Source: Alphaproteobacteria bacterium (GTDB taxonomy: Bacteria > Pseudomonadota > Alphaproteobacteria > Bin65). Taken from it: a stretch of 64,000 nt of DNA. The position numbers and the translations under genes are program-made. The notes under the pieces were generated by a model. That model did no database searches, was not told where the DNA came from, and saw nothing but the letters and a program-made list of their open reading frames with translations. The stretch is taken from assembly GCA_022819985.1 (NCBI GenBank), contig JAJEGH010000008.1, positions 1-64,000 on the forward strand, in the 5' to 3' direction. Below, piece after piece: positions 2,501-11,607 of the stretch (positions are counted from its first letter, which is position 1; each line of letters opens with the position of its first letter).

Positions 2501-4090
2501 ATGCGCGACATCCAGTTTCCCGGCCGATCCGTCGTCCACGGCGTCAACGGCGCCGCGGCGACCTCCACCCCCCTCGCCACGCTGACCGCCCTCGACATCC
2601 TGCGCGCCGGCGGCAACGCGGTCGACGCGGCGATCGCGGCCTGTGCCGTGCAATGCGTGGCCGAGCCCATGAGCACCGGTATCGGCGGCGACTGTTTCAT
2701 GCTCTACCAGAAGGGCGGCGAGGGGCCGGTCGCCGGCTTCAACGGCTCGGGCTGGTCGCCGGCCGGGATCACGGTCGATTCCCTGCTGGAGCGCGGCATC
2801 GGCCAGATCGATCCCGACGGCGTCGAATCGGTCACGGTGCCTGGCGCGGTCGACGCCTGGTGCGCAATCCTCGACGCCCACGGCACCATGGGCATCGACC
2901 GGGTGCTCCAGCCGGCCATCGCCTGCGCCGAGGACGGCTTTACCGTCGGCGAGGTGACCCGGCGGCTGTGGACCGGCCGGCTCGACGGCCTGCGCGGCAA
3001 CGAAGCCGCTTCGGCGCTCTATCTGAAAGACGGCGAACCGCCCGCGGCCGGCGACATATGGCACTCGCCGGCGCTGGGCCGGACGCTGCGCGCGATCGCC
3101 GAGCGCGGGCGCGACGGCTTCTATGCCGGGCCGGTGCTCGACGCGATGCTGGCCGCGCTGAAGACCGCCGGCGGCGTCCACACGGAGGAGGATTTCGCCG
3201 GCCAGCGCCTTGAGCCGGTCGCCCCGCTCGAATCCGGCTATCGCGGCCGGACCGTGCTGGAGATTCCGCCCAACGGCGGCGGCATCACCGCGCAGATCAT
3301 GCTCAACATCCTGGAAGGTTTCGACCTGGCCGGCCTGGACCCGGTCGGCGCGGAGCGGCTGCATCTGGAGATGGAGGCCCAGCGCCTCGCCTACACCCAG
3401 CGCGATGCCTTTATCGGCGATCCGCGCCATAGCGGCGTGCCGGTCGAGCGGTTGCTGTCCGACGAATTCGCCGCCGGCCTGCGCAGCCGGATCCGACGCG
3501 ACCGGGCGATGGACGCGCTGCCGCCCGTCGAGATGCCGCAGCACAGGGATACGGTCTATCTGACTGTCGTGGACCGGGACCTCAACTGCGTCAGCCTGAT
3601 CAATTCGGTCTACTGGAGCTTCGGCAGCTGCATCGCCTCGGAGGAGACCGGGGTGGTGTTCCAGAACCGGGGCGCGGGTTTCTTCGTCGCGCCGGGCCAT
3701 CCCAACTGCGTCGGCCCGCGCAAGCGGCCGCTGCACACGATCATCCCGGGCATGGTGCTGAACGGCGGCAGGTGCGAACTGGCCTTCGGCGTGATGGGCG
3801 GCCCCTTCCAGCCGGTCGGCCAGGCCCATATCGTCACCAGTCTCTGGGATTTCGACATGGACATTCAGCAGGCCATCGACTGCCCGCGCGTGTTCCACGA
3901 TGGCGGCGCGATTATCGCCGAGCGCGGGGTGCCGGAGGCCGCCGTCGCCGGCCTGCGCGCCCTCGGCCACGCGGTCGTGCCGGCCGAAAGCCCCCACGGC
4001 GGCGGCCAGGGCATCCTGATCGACCGGGAGCGCGGCGTCCTTTCCGCCGGCTCCGACCCGCGGCGCGACGGCTGCGCGCTGGGCTATTGA
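2501..4090 (+). CDS. Gamma-glutamyltransferase family protein
   Basis: 529-residue Ntn-hydrolase precursor of the gamma-glutamyltranspeptidase family, which cleaves itself before a Thr to make large and small subunits. The predicted nucleophile is Thr351 in [10 protein letters not shown], matching the TTHYSVVD position of classic enzymes. The N-terminus has the family [13 protein letters not shown] and STGIGGDCF motifs. No secretion signal is seen, and the small subunit has [12 protein letters not shown] instead of the usual GSPGGSRI, so this is one of the cytoplasmic GGT-like or acylase-like branches rather than a classic periplasmic GGT. Start 2501 ([10 protein letters not shown]) is preferred to the upstream 2417. 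It is divergent from frmA, so a glutathione link is possible but inferred. Confidence 0.85.
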
Positions 4091-6111: not shown

Positions 6112-6405
6112 ATGTCCCTGGTCACCGTAAAACCGAAGTTCCAAGTCACGATCCCCGCAAAGTTGCGTAAAGGGCTCGATCTGCGCGAGGGCGACCTCAT
6201 GGAAGCCACCGTTGTGGACGACGGCATCCTCTTGCGCCCCAAGCAGGTGGTGGACCGAAACGCAGCCGCCGAGCGGGTTGCCGCCGTCCTCGCGAGGATC
6301 GAGCCTCCGCCTGAGGATGCCGGTCGTACCGAGGACGAAATCATGGAAGACATCCTCGCCGACATCGCCGCCGCCCGCAAGGAACGCCGCGCCCGTAAAG
6401 CATGA
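6112..6405 (+). CDS. AbrB/MazE/SpoVT-family antitoxin
   Basis: 97-residue protein with an N-terminal swapped-hairpin AbrB DNA-binding domain (VTVKPKFQVTIPAKLRKGL at about residues 4-22, then LREGDLMEATVVDDGILLRPK). The charged C-terminal tail (EDEIMEDILADIAAARKERR) is the likely toxin-neutralising segment. It overlaps the PIN gene by ATGA, the usual antitoxin-toxin coupling, and is preceded by a perfect 12-bp inverted repeat. Confidence 0.85.
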   Translation: MSLVTVKPKFQVTIPAKLRKGLDLREGDLMEATVVDDGILLRPKQVVDRNAAAERVAAVLARIEPPPEDAGRTEDEIMEDILADIAAARKERRARKA

Positions 6406-6794
6406 GGGTCGTTATCGATTGCAACATCCTCGTTTCCGCGGCCCGGTCCGGAGGCGTGTGCGCCAAGGTTGTCACCGACGCGATTCACGGCCACGAGATT
6501 GTGCTTTCCAAATCGATTGTCGAAGAATATCTGGCGGTCGCGGAACGGCCGGCCCACGCCGGCTACCGTGACGCCATGCTGTCCCTGGTTGCGGAGCTTG
6601 AGCGGGTGGCCGCGTTCGTGGAGCCGGCGGATACTGTGTTCGGTCTCCGAGATCCCGATGATGAAATCTATTTGGCAACCGCAATGGCTGGCGGCGCGGC
6701 CCTGGTAACCGGCAACAGCAGGGACTTTACCGAACCGCGATACGGTCCGGTCAAGGTCTTCTCCCCGCGCTCTTTTATTGATCGAACGGATTGA
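6402..6794 (+). CDS. PIN-domain toxin (putative ribonuclease)
   Basis: 130-residue PIN protein. Acidic active-site residues appear in MRVVIDCNILVSAARSGG (Asp6), the Glu pair of SIVEEYLAV, and RDPDDEIYLATA; PIN toxins cleave RNA using these with Mg2+/Mn2+. The pattern DCNILVSA...DPDDE...TGNSRDF is that of the toxins paired with AbrB-type antitoxins, as here (4-bp overlap with the upstream gene). It looks full length and active. Confidence 0.85.
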   Translation: MRVVIDCNILVSAARSGGVCAKVVTDAIHGHEIVLSKSIVEEYLAVAERPAHAGYRDAMLSLVAELERVAAFVEPADTVFGLRDPDDEIYLATAMAGGAALVTGNSRDFTEPRYGPVKVFSPRSFIDRTD

Positions 6795-6826
6795 CAATGG
6801 CGAGGCCGTCGACCGGCGGCCGGACC

Positions 6827-7177
6827 TCAAACGCCCCGGCAACGGTGGGTTTTTCCCAGCGCGCGGAGGACGACGCGCGCGGCCGGCCGGGCCCGATCCT
6901 CGGGCGCGCGGCGCAGATGCAGCAGCACGGCGATGGAGAGTTCCGCAATGCTGGCTCCCGGCCGGGGGCAGACGAGGGGCAACCGGCCGTACAGCCCGGC
7001 CGAGGCCCGGTGCCCCGCCAGGACGCCGGCCACATAAGCGTGCAGTATCGGAATCGGAATGCCGATCAGGTCGTCGGCAGTCCTGAACGGCCCATCGCTT
7101 CGCGCCGGTCCGGCCGCCGCGGCGAGCGCGGACACGGCAAAGAGCGCTGCCGCAAGAGCGTTTCCCGATCGCTTCAT
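6827..7177 (-). CDS. Small secreted protein with Rap1a/Tai-like domain
   Basis: 116 residues. The N-terminus is a signal peptide (MKRSGNALAAALFAVSALAAA, predicted cleavage after ARS or earlier). The C-terminal half, CPRPGASIAELSIAVLLHL then RPAARVVLRALGKTHRC, matches the two-cysteine pattern of the Rap1a/Tai domain, named for periplasmic immunity proteins of type VI secretion amidase effectors but also found in many stand-alone proteins. No effector gene is adjacent, so the role is unknown. It lies between toxin-antitoxin pairs, convergent with the PIN toxin to its left. Confidence 0.6.
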   Translation of the reverse strand: MKRSGNALAAALFAVSALAAAAGPARSDGPFRTADDLIGIPIPILHAYVAGVLAGHRASAGLYGRLPLVCPRPGASIAELSIAVLLHLRRAPEDRARPAARVVLRALGKTHRCRGV

Positions 7178-7281
7178 GGTTCTGCTCCCGAATTGAACGC
7201 CGGCTTCCGCCCCTCCCGCCGCGCCGTCATGCCGCTTCCCGACAGGCGCCGGAGGTCTCCGCGCCGTGCCCGGCCGCCCGG

Positions 7282-7743
7282 CTACGCGCCATGGGGCGGC
7301 CCATGGGACTGCAGGGCGATTCCGGCGCCGGCCGGTACGCCGAGCTGCCGTCCCGCCTCGATCAGCTGCCGGTCCAGGCTGTACAGTGCTGCCGCACCCC
7401 GGTTCGCGGCGATGGCCAGATGCAGCGCGTCGCCGGCCCTCAGGCCAGTCTCGAAACGGCCGAGAAAGGCCCTGGCAAGATCGAAATCGGCCCGGCCCGG
7501 CAGCAGGACGGCGAAGGACTCGCCGATCATGGTCTCGAACCGGGCGTCGGCGGCGCGCGCCGCATCCGCGCTCAGCCCGCCCATGCGCACCTCGCGGGCG
7601 AGCAGCGAGGAAAACTCGACGCGGGTCCAGTGGCTGACCGCCAGTTCGTCCGGCGGCAGCGTTTCCAGGAAGCCGGCGACACGTTCGCTCGCGGCTTCAG
7701 ACAGGATAAGGGGCGCGACGAAGCTGGTATCGAAATGGCGCAT
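7282..7743 (-). CDS. vapC: PIN-domain toxin, VapC-like
   Basis: 153-residue PIN ribonuclease-type toxin. Active-site acids are in MRHFDTSFVAPLILSE (Asp5), the Glu of RVEFSSLLAREV, and GLRAGDALHLAIA (Asp). The last acidic position is SLDRQLIEAG. It follows a Phd-type antitoxin by 15 bp on the same strand, making a complete module. Confidence 0.85.
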   Translation of the reverse strand: MRHFDTSFVAPLILSEAASERVAGFLETLPPDELAVSHWTRVEFSSLLAREVRMGGLSADAARAADARFETMIGESFAVLLPGRADFDLARAFLGRFETGLRAGDALHLAIAANRGAAALYSLDRQLIEAGRQLGVPAGAGIALQSHGPPHGA

Positions 7744-7758
7744 GCCGGAGCGCCTCGC

Positions 7759-8055
<297 letters not shown>

Positions 8056-8058
<3 letters not shown>

Positions 8059-8217
8059 GATAATAGCACGGTCCGACCGTTCATGCCACTGCCGTGCGGC
8101 CATACCATTGCGCGGAATCGAGCCGTACCGGAACGGACTGCGATGAAACGGGCCGGCTCCCGCATCGGGTTCGCCCAGCAGGATCGCCATCAGGGCCGAG
8201 GTATCGACGGCGATCAT
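8056..8217 (-). pseudogene. Truncated PIN toxin remnant
   Basis: Begins as a normal PIN toxin (MIAVDTSALMAILLGEPDA), with the first catalytic Asp at residue 5, and overlaps the upstream antitoxin stop by ATGA. After about 19 residues the similarity ends and the frame runs through unrelated sequence to a stop 53 residues from the start. The three downstream acidic active-site regions are absent, so no toxin activity is expected. The break falls right beside the operator of the next module, which suggests a deletion joined here. Confidence 0.7.
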
Positions 8218-8471
8218 GCCGGCAGACCGTCGTCGTCGTAGAGGAAGTCCTGGCTGCGGGCGGCGCCCGGACCCTCGACCGTTTTTTCCGCGGCGGCGGT
8301 CTGCACGGCGGCGATGGCTGCGCGCCGCTCGGCGGCGGTCGGCCGCTGTTCGACCGGGGCCAGCCTGACCGTGGCGCGCCCGTGCCGGGTCAGCACGACC
8401 TCCTCGCCCGCCTCGGCGCGGCGCACGAGTTCGGTCAATTGCCCTTTCGCCTGTGTCACGGAGACCTGCAT
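8214..8471 (-). CDS. Phd/YefM-type antitoxin (orphaned)
   Basis: 85 residues. VSVTQAKGQLTELVRRAEAG and EEVVLTRHGRATVRLAPVEQ are the Phd DNA-binding core; the C-terminus ends in an acidic DFLYDDDGLPA segment like those that bind PIN toxins. The antitoxin is intact but the toxin encoded behind it is a stub. Retained antitoxins of this type can act as repressors or anti-toxins against related modules, here possibly the neighbour at 7282-8028. Confidence 0.8.
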   Translation of the reverse strand: MQVSVTQAKGQLTELVRRAEAGEEVVLTRHGRATVRLAPVEQRPTAAERRAAIAAVQTAAAEKTVEGPGAARSQDFLYDDDGLPA

Positions 8472-8688: not shown

Positions 8689-10635
<1,947 letters not shown>

Positions 10636-10941
10636 TCAAATCCGTCCATAGGACCTAGAATGGTCGCATTCACCAGCTTTTTTTGCCCAATGGGGCGACG
10701 GGACGGCCCTCCCCGCAAGATGCTGCTGTCGTGCAGGCGGCGACGCCAATGTCTCCGGGCGCGAGGCACAAATGTCTTGCGAATCAGGACGACCGGGATT
10801 CAGGACACGTCATCTAGGACGTAATTTCCATACGCATAGAATAAGAGCGGCCCCAGGCTCCCGTGCCTCCCCCTTCCGTTTGCAATCCGCGCGCACCCAT
10901 CCCTACATTCATGGCAGATGCACGCCGTTGAAGGGTCAAAT
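10636..10941. other. Intergenic region downstream of acs
   Basis: No gene seen. A T7 run follows CAGC at about 10677, a possible weak end for acs. Several loosely repeated AGGAC/AGGACG words lie near 10786-10822. Nothing firm can be assigned. Confidence 0.4.
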
Positions 10942-11442
10942 ATGATGAAGTCGGTACGCAAGAAGGACGAGGCCGCGCAATCCCTGCGCATGAACGAGAA
11001 GAAATGGTCCAAGCCGCTCATGGACGCTGGCTGGACCGCGATTCCCGCCGTCATCATCGAGCGGCAGGCCGCCCTCGGTCTCGACGCGCTTGACGTGAAC
11101 ATTCTGCTGCACTTAGCGAACCACTGGTGGACCGCGGACAACAAGCCCCACCCGGCCAAGAACACCATCGCCAAGGCCGTCGGCGTCCATCCCCGCACGG
11201 TTCAGCGACACATCGCCAGGATGGAGGCAGCAGGATTCATTCGCCGCGAGGAACGTCGGATTCCCGGTAAGGGCAGCCGGACTAATCTCTATCACTTCGA
11301 CGGCCTGATCGCCGAGGCCAAGCCCTTTGCCGAAGAGAAGCTGGCGGAGCGCCGGCGGCGAGAGCAAGACGACAAGGCTCGGCCGGGCCGCAAGGGGCGT
11401 CCCCGCCTGACTGTGGTCGGCGGTTCCGACGACGAGGATTGA
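10942..11442 (+). CDS. Helix-turn-helix DNA-binding protein
   Basis: About 166 residues. The middle, LDVNILLHLANHWW, then KNTIAKAVGVHPRTVQRHI and RMEAAGFIRREERR, is a winged helix-turn-helix (HTH_36-type, as in plasmid/phage replication initiators and accessory regulators). The tail is strongly basic then acidic (RRRREQDDKARPGRKGRPR...DDED). Tandem ATGs at 10942 and 10945 follow GAAGGG and are favoured over ATG at 10918. It stands alone next to a tRNA-like gene, a common position for mobile-element leftovers. Target unknown. Confidence 0.75.
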   Translation: MMKSVRKKDEAAQSLRMNEKKWSKPLMDAGWTAIPAVIIERQAALGLDALDVNILLHLANHWWTADNKPHPAKNTIAKAVGVHPRTVQRHIARMEAAGFIRREERRIPGKGSRTNLYHFDGLIAEAKPFAEEKLAERRRREQDDKARPGRKGRPRLTVVGGSDDED

Positions 11443-11449
11443 GAGTAAC

Positions 11450-11555
11450 AGCGGCGTAGCTCAATCGGATAGAGCCCCCGCATTCGACGGAAATCAGCGT
11501 GACAACTGAAAGTACGGGTGGGGAGACGCGGGTTCAAGTCCCGCCGCCGCTCCCA
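11450..11555 (+). tRNA. tRNA-like gene with oversized anticodon arm (possible tRNA-Arg with insertion)
   Basis: A near-complete cloverleaf can be folded. Acceptor AGCGGCG (11450-11456) pairs fully with CGCCGCT (11545-11551), followed by C and an encoded CCA (11553-11555). The D arm is GCTC/GAGC (11459-11462/11472-11475) and the T arm GCGGG-TTCAAGT-CCCGC (11528-11544). The anticodon stem is best drawn as CCCGC (11477-11481) with GTGGG (11518-11522), leaving a five-base variable loop. The loop between is 36 bases instead of 7, an excess of 29. Its 5' side reads ATTCGAC, which would present anticodon UCG (Arg). Either a very small intron, a decayed gene, or a non-standard tRNA. Confidence 0.45.
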
Positions 11556-11607
11556 ACTCCTTGCTGACCGCCACCGCCCGCCCGCAGTCGGCGCCGTCCT
11601 GCCGGCG

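Follow-up and report, generated by a model that had tools for sequence, protein, structure and literature searches.

A conserved tRNA-shaped RNA, found mostly on bacterial plasmids next to a small helix-turn-helix gene, has a bulged hairpin instead of an anticodon loop

What is a gene that has a sound tRNA body and a grossly oversized anticodon loop: a tRNA with an intron, a dead tRNA copy, or an RNA of another kind? This question is raised by an element at positions 11450-11555, forward (+) strand, of a 64,000-nucleotide (nt) stretch of the alphaproteobacterial contig JAJEGH010000008.1, the whole of which is called the window here. An earlier inspection of the letters only (the sequence-only reading) had offered the first two answers, a tRNA-Arg(UCG) with a 29-base insert or a dead copy left by an integrating element. 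We found that the element is a conserved, covarying, non-canonical tRNA-like RNA, tightly linked to a gene for a small helix-turn-helix (HTH) protein in mobile and accessory cassettes. It belongs to a family found mostly on bacterial plasmids, directly 3' of this small DNA-binding-protein gene.

The tRNA body at 11450-11552 matched the Rfam tRNA family RF00005 with 46.7 bits (E 7.9e-7; gathering score 29), and this was the only Rfam family above cut-off in the window; no intron family of Rfam matched the element. With the covariance model R2, built from the RNA family with the window copy (locus L092) among its sequences, the element scored 96.6 bits, which is beyond chance. ARAGORN called nothing at this position with default settings; when introns were permitted, it reported tRNA-Arg(tcg) at 11450-11555, an anticodon call that hinges on the intron assumed. 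The acceptor stem AGCGGCG/CGCCGCT (11450-11456 paired with 11545-11551), the D arm GCTC-AATCGGATA-GAGC (11459-11475), the T arm GCGGG-TTCAAGT-CCCGC (11528-11544), and C73 (11552) with the encoded CCA (11553-11555) were read directly, and these parts are as intact as had been proposed. The outer anticodon stem CCCCG/TGGGG (11476-11480 paired with 11519-11523) encloses 38 nt, i.e., 31 above the normal 7-nt loop; the enlargement described before is real, and its size, given as 36 bases with 29 extra, has to be corrected to these values for a stem of five base pairs (bp). Inside it, the stretch CATTCGA (11481-11487) is the family site of two stem-extending bases, not both paired here, and of the 5-nt bulge TTCGA. 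This is followed by the inner hairpin (11488-11516), composed of CG...CG, GAAA opposite AAGTA, TCAG/CTGA and the apical loop CGTGACAA, and by a GG facing the bulge region (11517-11518) that is present in 14 of 16 copies of the family. The TCAG/CTGA stem, previously regarded as weak and as the only feature of the insert, is present; it caps a bulged hairpin that is conserved in the family.

The family contains 16 copies, 15 of them outside the window; they come from Alpha- and Gammaproteobacteria and are carried by plasmids as well as chromosomes. All share normal acceptor, D, and T arms, an anticodon stem of 5-7 bp, a 5-nt bulge with the consensus NKCKA, mostly UUCUA or UUCGA, and an inner hairpin. 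When folded individually, most copies gave a 7-bp stem, the bulge on the 5' strand, and the inner helix, and the aligned arm can be written as CCCTG-Y-U-[NKCKA]-CAUA...UAUG-GG-CAGGG. In the alignment A4 (16 copies, 27 pairs), 96.5% of the 430 cells were paired, as compared with 38-54% in a control with slid partners. Double changes were found in 67 cells, against 17.5 in shuffled alignments, and affected 18 of the 27 pairs, while the covariation score was 0.538 versus 0.220 in the shuffles; none of 500 shuffles matched any of these measures. The double changes touched five of the seven pairs of the outer arm helix, including all five of the outer anticodon stem, and all four pairs of the inner arm helix. 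In the acceptor stem, 98.2% of the cells were paired and six of the seven pairs showed double changes; in the T arm all cells were paired, and the D arm was near-invariant. Fitting the alignments A4 and A2 to the structure introduced a bias in its favor, but the same columns were already visible in A1, an unfitted MAFFT alignment. In four copies (the window, L076, L079, and L243), GAAA stands opposite RAGTA in the inner hairpin, an arrangement that is bulged-G/loop-E-like. Many copies, the one in the window not among them, contain the PemK and MazF site motifs UAC and ACA in the bulge region; this clue was dropped as speculation.

A distant blastn search with the RNA alone against 72,556 plasmids found copies in Bradyrhizobium elkanii, Caulobacter, Methylosinus, Sinorhizobium meliloti (pRm1132f), and Xanthobacter, all five in the same position downstream of homologous HTH genes, and also matched an Acidisoma plasmid, where the upstream gene is annotated only as hypothetical. 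A second query added gammaproteobacterial plasmids of Methylocaldum and Spongiibacter, and the genome collection yielded Phenylobacterium J367, with two tandem copies, the second sitting after the first. Genome scans contributed G119, G466, G512, and G685 (L243-L246), and a further query the copy of Rhizobium CB3060 (L266, hit H114), which at first resembled an ordinary tRNA match but belongs to the family, its inner hairpin being short. A divergent 17th copy with two hairpins lies after an HTH gene on a betaproteobacterial plasmid, that of Paraburkholderia (L090). A Bordetella phage candidate (H179) was rejected as an ordinary tRNA. Exact patterns detected the family in 4 of 398 Pseudomonadota genomes and 2 of 385 Alphaproteobacteria genomes, both counts taking in the genome of the window. 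These patterns were more selective than the model R1, which on 289 alphaproteobacterial genomes returned mostly normal tRNAs and one added copy (G119); the tRNA body supplies much of the model score, and weak model matches without the long arm were excluded from the counts. No phage record of INPHARED covered most of the element, and the exact family motif was not found in IMG/VR.

The linkage to the HTH gene was absent from the sequence-only reading. In 12 of 17 copies (L090 counted), the spacing between the stop codon of an upstream HTH or HTH-like gene and the first base of the RNA is -2 to 12 nt, and the HTH proteins form one family. In the window, the open reading frame (ORF) at 10918-11442 (+; alternative start ATG at 10942) encodes a small winged-helix, RepO/DnaD-like protein with matches to Pfam HTH_36 (2.6e-9) and to the PHROG 'replication initiation O-like' (4.7e-11); its stop codon ends 7 nt upstream of the RNA, and homologues occur in 338 plasmid records. 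HTH identity and RNA identity were correlated (Mantel r 0.46, p about 0.014, n 9). The ORF upstream of L245 is a more distant HTH/DnaD_N-like one, and the S. meliloti HTH gene gives a match only as two separate pieces.

Taken as a whole, these data led us to favor, with a probability of about 0.6, a mobile two-part cassette, in which the gene for the small HTH DNA-binding protein would be combined with a non-decoding tRNA-mimic RNA working as a regulatory or effector RNA. Both parts would probably be made as one transcript, from which host RNase P and the 3'/CCA machinery would probably release a stable RNA of ~106 nt; such processing is likely because the acceptor, the elbow, and the CCA are normal. 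The released RNA would keep the tRNA acceptor, elbow, and T arm, with the long hairpin and its 5-nt bulge (UUCUA/UUCGA) replacing the anticodon, and this putative binding site would most likely be recognized by the HTH protein or by a tRNA-binding host factor. In the cassette, the RNA might fill the slot that sister cassettes give to a toxin or an abortive infection (Abi)-like protein. Judged from the sequence, the RNA most likely serves the HTH cassette as a partner or effector, and its function may be toxic, regulatory, or protective. A role as an ordinary adaptor is unlikely: the discriminator C73 of most copies and the lack of a fixed anticodon argue against aminoacylation and use on the ribosome. 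The tRNA-Arg inventory that had been suggested as a check showed, among 46 tRNA matches in the genome of the window, Arg tRNAs with TCT, CCG, CCT, and ACG, so decoding does not depend on the element.

Several observations weigh against this cassette. No HTH gene was recognized upstream of L081, L244, and L266, and only an apparent HTH C-terminus remains at L246, and thus the RNA may not need the HTH partner. In the window copy, the arm forms but weakly, and folded alone it was no better than shuffled sequences (z -0.22). Nor was there a signal of base pairing between arm and leader of the HTH gene (z -1.3 to 1.6). Finally, the CCA and the discriminator vary between copies.

Sister loci show what else can follow the HTH gene. 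In sphingomonads, the same gene precedes PemK/MazF with an overlapping start, and on Agrobacterium and Shinella plasmids an Abi_2/PD-T4-5-like protein. When the model R2 was run on the sister loci where the HTH gene precedes a protein, no RNA was found. Directly downstream of the RNA itself, the Caulobacter copy has an AbiTii protein and the Bradyrhizobium copy a DUF6998/mREase_II-like protein. These arrangements bear on a narrower proposal, which we consider possible and rather less probable than the regulatory or effector cassette in general: the HTH protein would repress or neutralize a tRNA mimic that is itself a toxin or immunity effector, jamming translation or titrating a tRNA-binding enzyme, in plasmid addiction or abortive infection. 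The PemK/MazF and Abi_2-like proteins after the same gene, the AbiTii next to the Caulobacter RNA, and a chromosomal spot shared with a gene encoding a NO VEIN C-terminal domain (NOV_C) protein are consistent with this proposal. Against it, an intact HTH gene is missing at L244, L246, and L266, and the proteins after the HTH gene in L086 and L089 showed no Pfam or PADLOC match. Only tentatively could one speak of a class of mobile cassettes in which a toxic or immune tRNA mimic is under the control of the HTH protein, this RNA effector entering the tRNA pathway and acting via the bulged hairpin that replaces the anticodon.

In a third group of sister loci (L027, L086, and L089), the HTH gene is followed by an uncharacterized protein. 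The proteins, of ~175-180 amino acids, are encoded directly after the HTH gene in Acidovorax (L027 3444-3986), Methylobacterium (L086 3537-4067), and Roseinatronobacter (L089 3505-4029); they had no match in Pfam, PHROG, or PADLOC and are possibly one effector family. The Vibrio vulnificus plasmid p93U204 (L084), where an HTH homologue is present, also carries two PAGEV RNAs (RF03037) at 911-1129 and 3665-3883, with about 120 bits.

The NOV_C gene was found in the related genome G002. The islet that holds the window element (about 10634-11572) is flanked by an acetyl-CoA synthetase (acs) gene and a livF-like gene; in the G002 alignment, both flanks of the islet align at 94-95% and the middle differs, a single NOV_C gene (L262 3467-4324) replacing the HTH-RNA cassette. 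As a different gene stands between matching flanks, the acs-liv interval is a variable accessory spot. Flanking repeats were searched for around the islet and the element, and none were found. Elsewhere in the window, a cluster at 6112-8471 comprises two toxin-antitoxin pairs plus one more antitoxin-like ORF: a MazE-like antitoxin with a PIN protein (6112-6794), a PIN protein with a Phd-like ORF (7282-8028), and lastly a second Phd-like ORF (8214-8471), both Phd-like calls being made by eye.

A different explanation places the function in the 3' untranslated region of the HTH gene. The tRNA fold would attract RNase P, and cleavage of the HTH mRNA at the stop codon would determine its stability or couple its translation to processing; the RNA would otherwise be inert. 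The distance from stop codon to RNA, always -2 to 12 nt where the HTH gene is present, is within the footprint of a terminating ribosome and would suit this mechanism, but the conserved bulged hairpin, the tandem Phenylobacterium copies, and the HTH-less copies are left unexplained, and we regard it as improbable.

The spliced tRNA of the sequence-only reading fared worse. The insert is indeed unusual and unlike known tRNA introns, since it is ~31 nt long, has no Rfam intron match, and lacks a bulge-helix-bulge motif, so that a novel splicing route would be required. In nearly all copies, a 7-nt strand NNNNCKA precedes the inner hairpin, and exact excision of hairpin plus GG would restore a 7-nt loop; U33 is also kept in several copies. 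However, the strand ends in CKA, placing G or U at position 37, with U in about half of the copies; the window copy carries A at position 33, U33 is missing from some others as well, and the would-be anticodon varies. A C73 does not match the usual Arg tRNAs, the Arg set is complete without the element, and the insert is conserved and covaries as a structure, which is not required of an intron. The geometry does not fit either: the folds gave a 5+0 bulge and not the 3-nt bulge/4-bp helix/3-nt bulge, and the size is far below that of a group I intron. A functional tRNA-Arg(UCG) matured in this way is therefore very unlikely. Least credible of all is a dead tRNA copy or attachment-site remnant, to which the location in an accessory islet might point, as the stems are intact and covarying, the D and T loops and the insert architecture are conserved in 16 distinct copies from two classes, with a divergent betaproteobacterial one besides, repeats are lacking, and neither an insert-free version nor, in relatives, a close uninterrupted tRNA was found.

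Compared with known RNAs, the element resembles a tRNA (RF00005) in its acceptor, D, and T arms, canonical T loop, encoded CCA, and score above the gathering cut-off, and differs in the bulged hairpin, the absence of a fixed anticodon, the mostly C discriminator, and the HTH neighbor on mobile elements. An elongator tRNA has a single anticodon in a 7-nt loop, with U33 and a purine at position 37; the element has instead the 38-nt segment with the NNNNCKA strand, whose anticodon positions vary. Transfer-messenger RNA (tmRNA) and the bacterial Y RNA YrlA are non-decoding or specialized tRNA-mimicking RNAs. The element has no Rfam match to either; a tag reading frame, pseudoknots, and an ARAGORN tmRNA match were not found, its D stem is normal, and its termini make a normal acceptor stem, not a Ro-binding stem. 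Allo-tRNAs are odd cloverleaf tRNAs of Proteobacteria, some on mobile elements, with a normal anticodon loop and the oddity in the acceptor and T arms, whereas here the oddity is the anticodon loop. In engineered tRNA scaffolds, the anticodon arm of a tRNA that is normal elsewhere holds a foreign RNA, relying on host processing and stability; the hairpin in place of the anticodon loop is alike, but the element is natural, conserved, and covarying. Plasmid toxin-antitoxin and Abi cassettes also consist of a small HTH gene and a short effector-like unit, with homologous HTH genes before PemK/MazF and Abi_2-like proteins, a likeness of synteny alone, and the candidate second unit is here an RNA.

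In IMG/VR, at least 69 of the 120 matches listed (L122-L241) to the pattern GTAGCTCAN{58,88}GGTTCAARTCC are single tRNA bodies of about 94-123 nt with an enlarged anticodon region and intact acceptor, D, and T stems. Among the matches listed, few closely follow an ORF, so these elements have the look of a distinct and diverse group from phages. In a subset (L128, L133, L166, L167, L193, L194, L196, L200, L216, L231, and L236), a hairpin followed by an ACAGCAA-like motif lies inside the arm, often ahead of a normal-looking small loop; in these phage tRNA-like genes, the anticodon stem possibly bears an insert on its 5' side. A relation in idea between the enlarged-anticodon bodies and a toxic or immune tRNA-mimic class is conceivable but less probable than not.

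No description of the RNA family was found in the open-access literature, subscription papers and preprints being outside the search; the family is previously undescribed and is a natural analogue of the tRNA scaffold. At most RefSeq plasmid loci, the locus-tag numbering skips one at the element (the plasmid gene table omits RNA genes), suggesting that automatic annotation has already entered it as a tRNA in these records. Annotation pipelines probably label such elements as ordinary or odd tRNAs, and a functional RNA family may therefore have been overlooked. Like engineers, evolution has turned the tRNA fold into a carrier for an inserted structured hairpin, in this case on plasmids as well as other mobile elements, and if the RNA is indeed an effector, it would represent a new route for mobile elements to interfere with tRNA biology.
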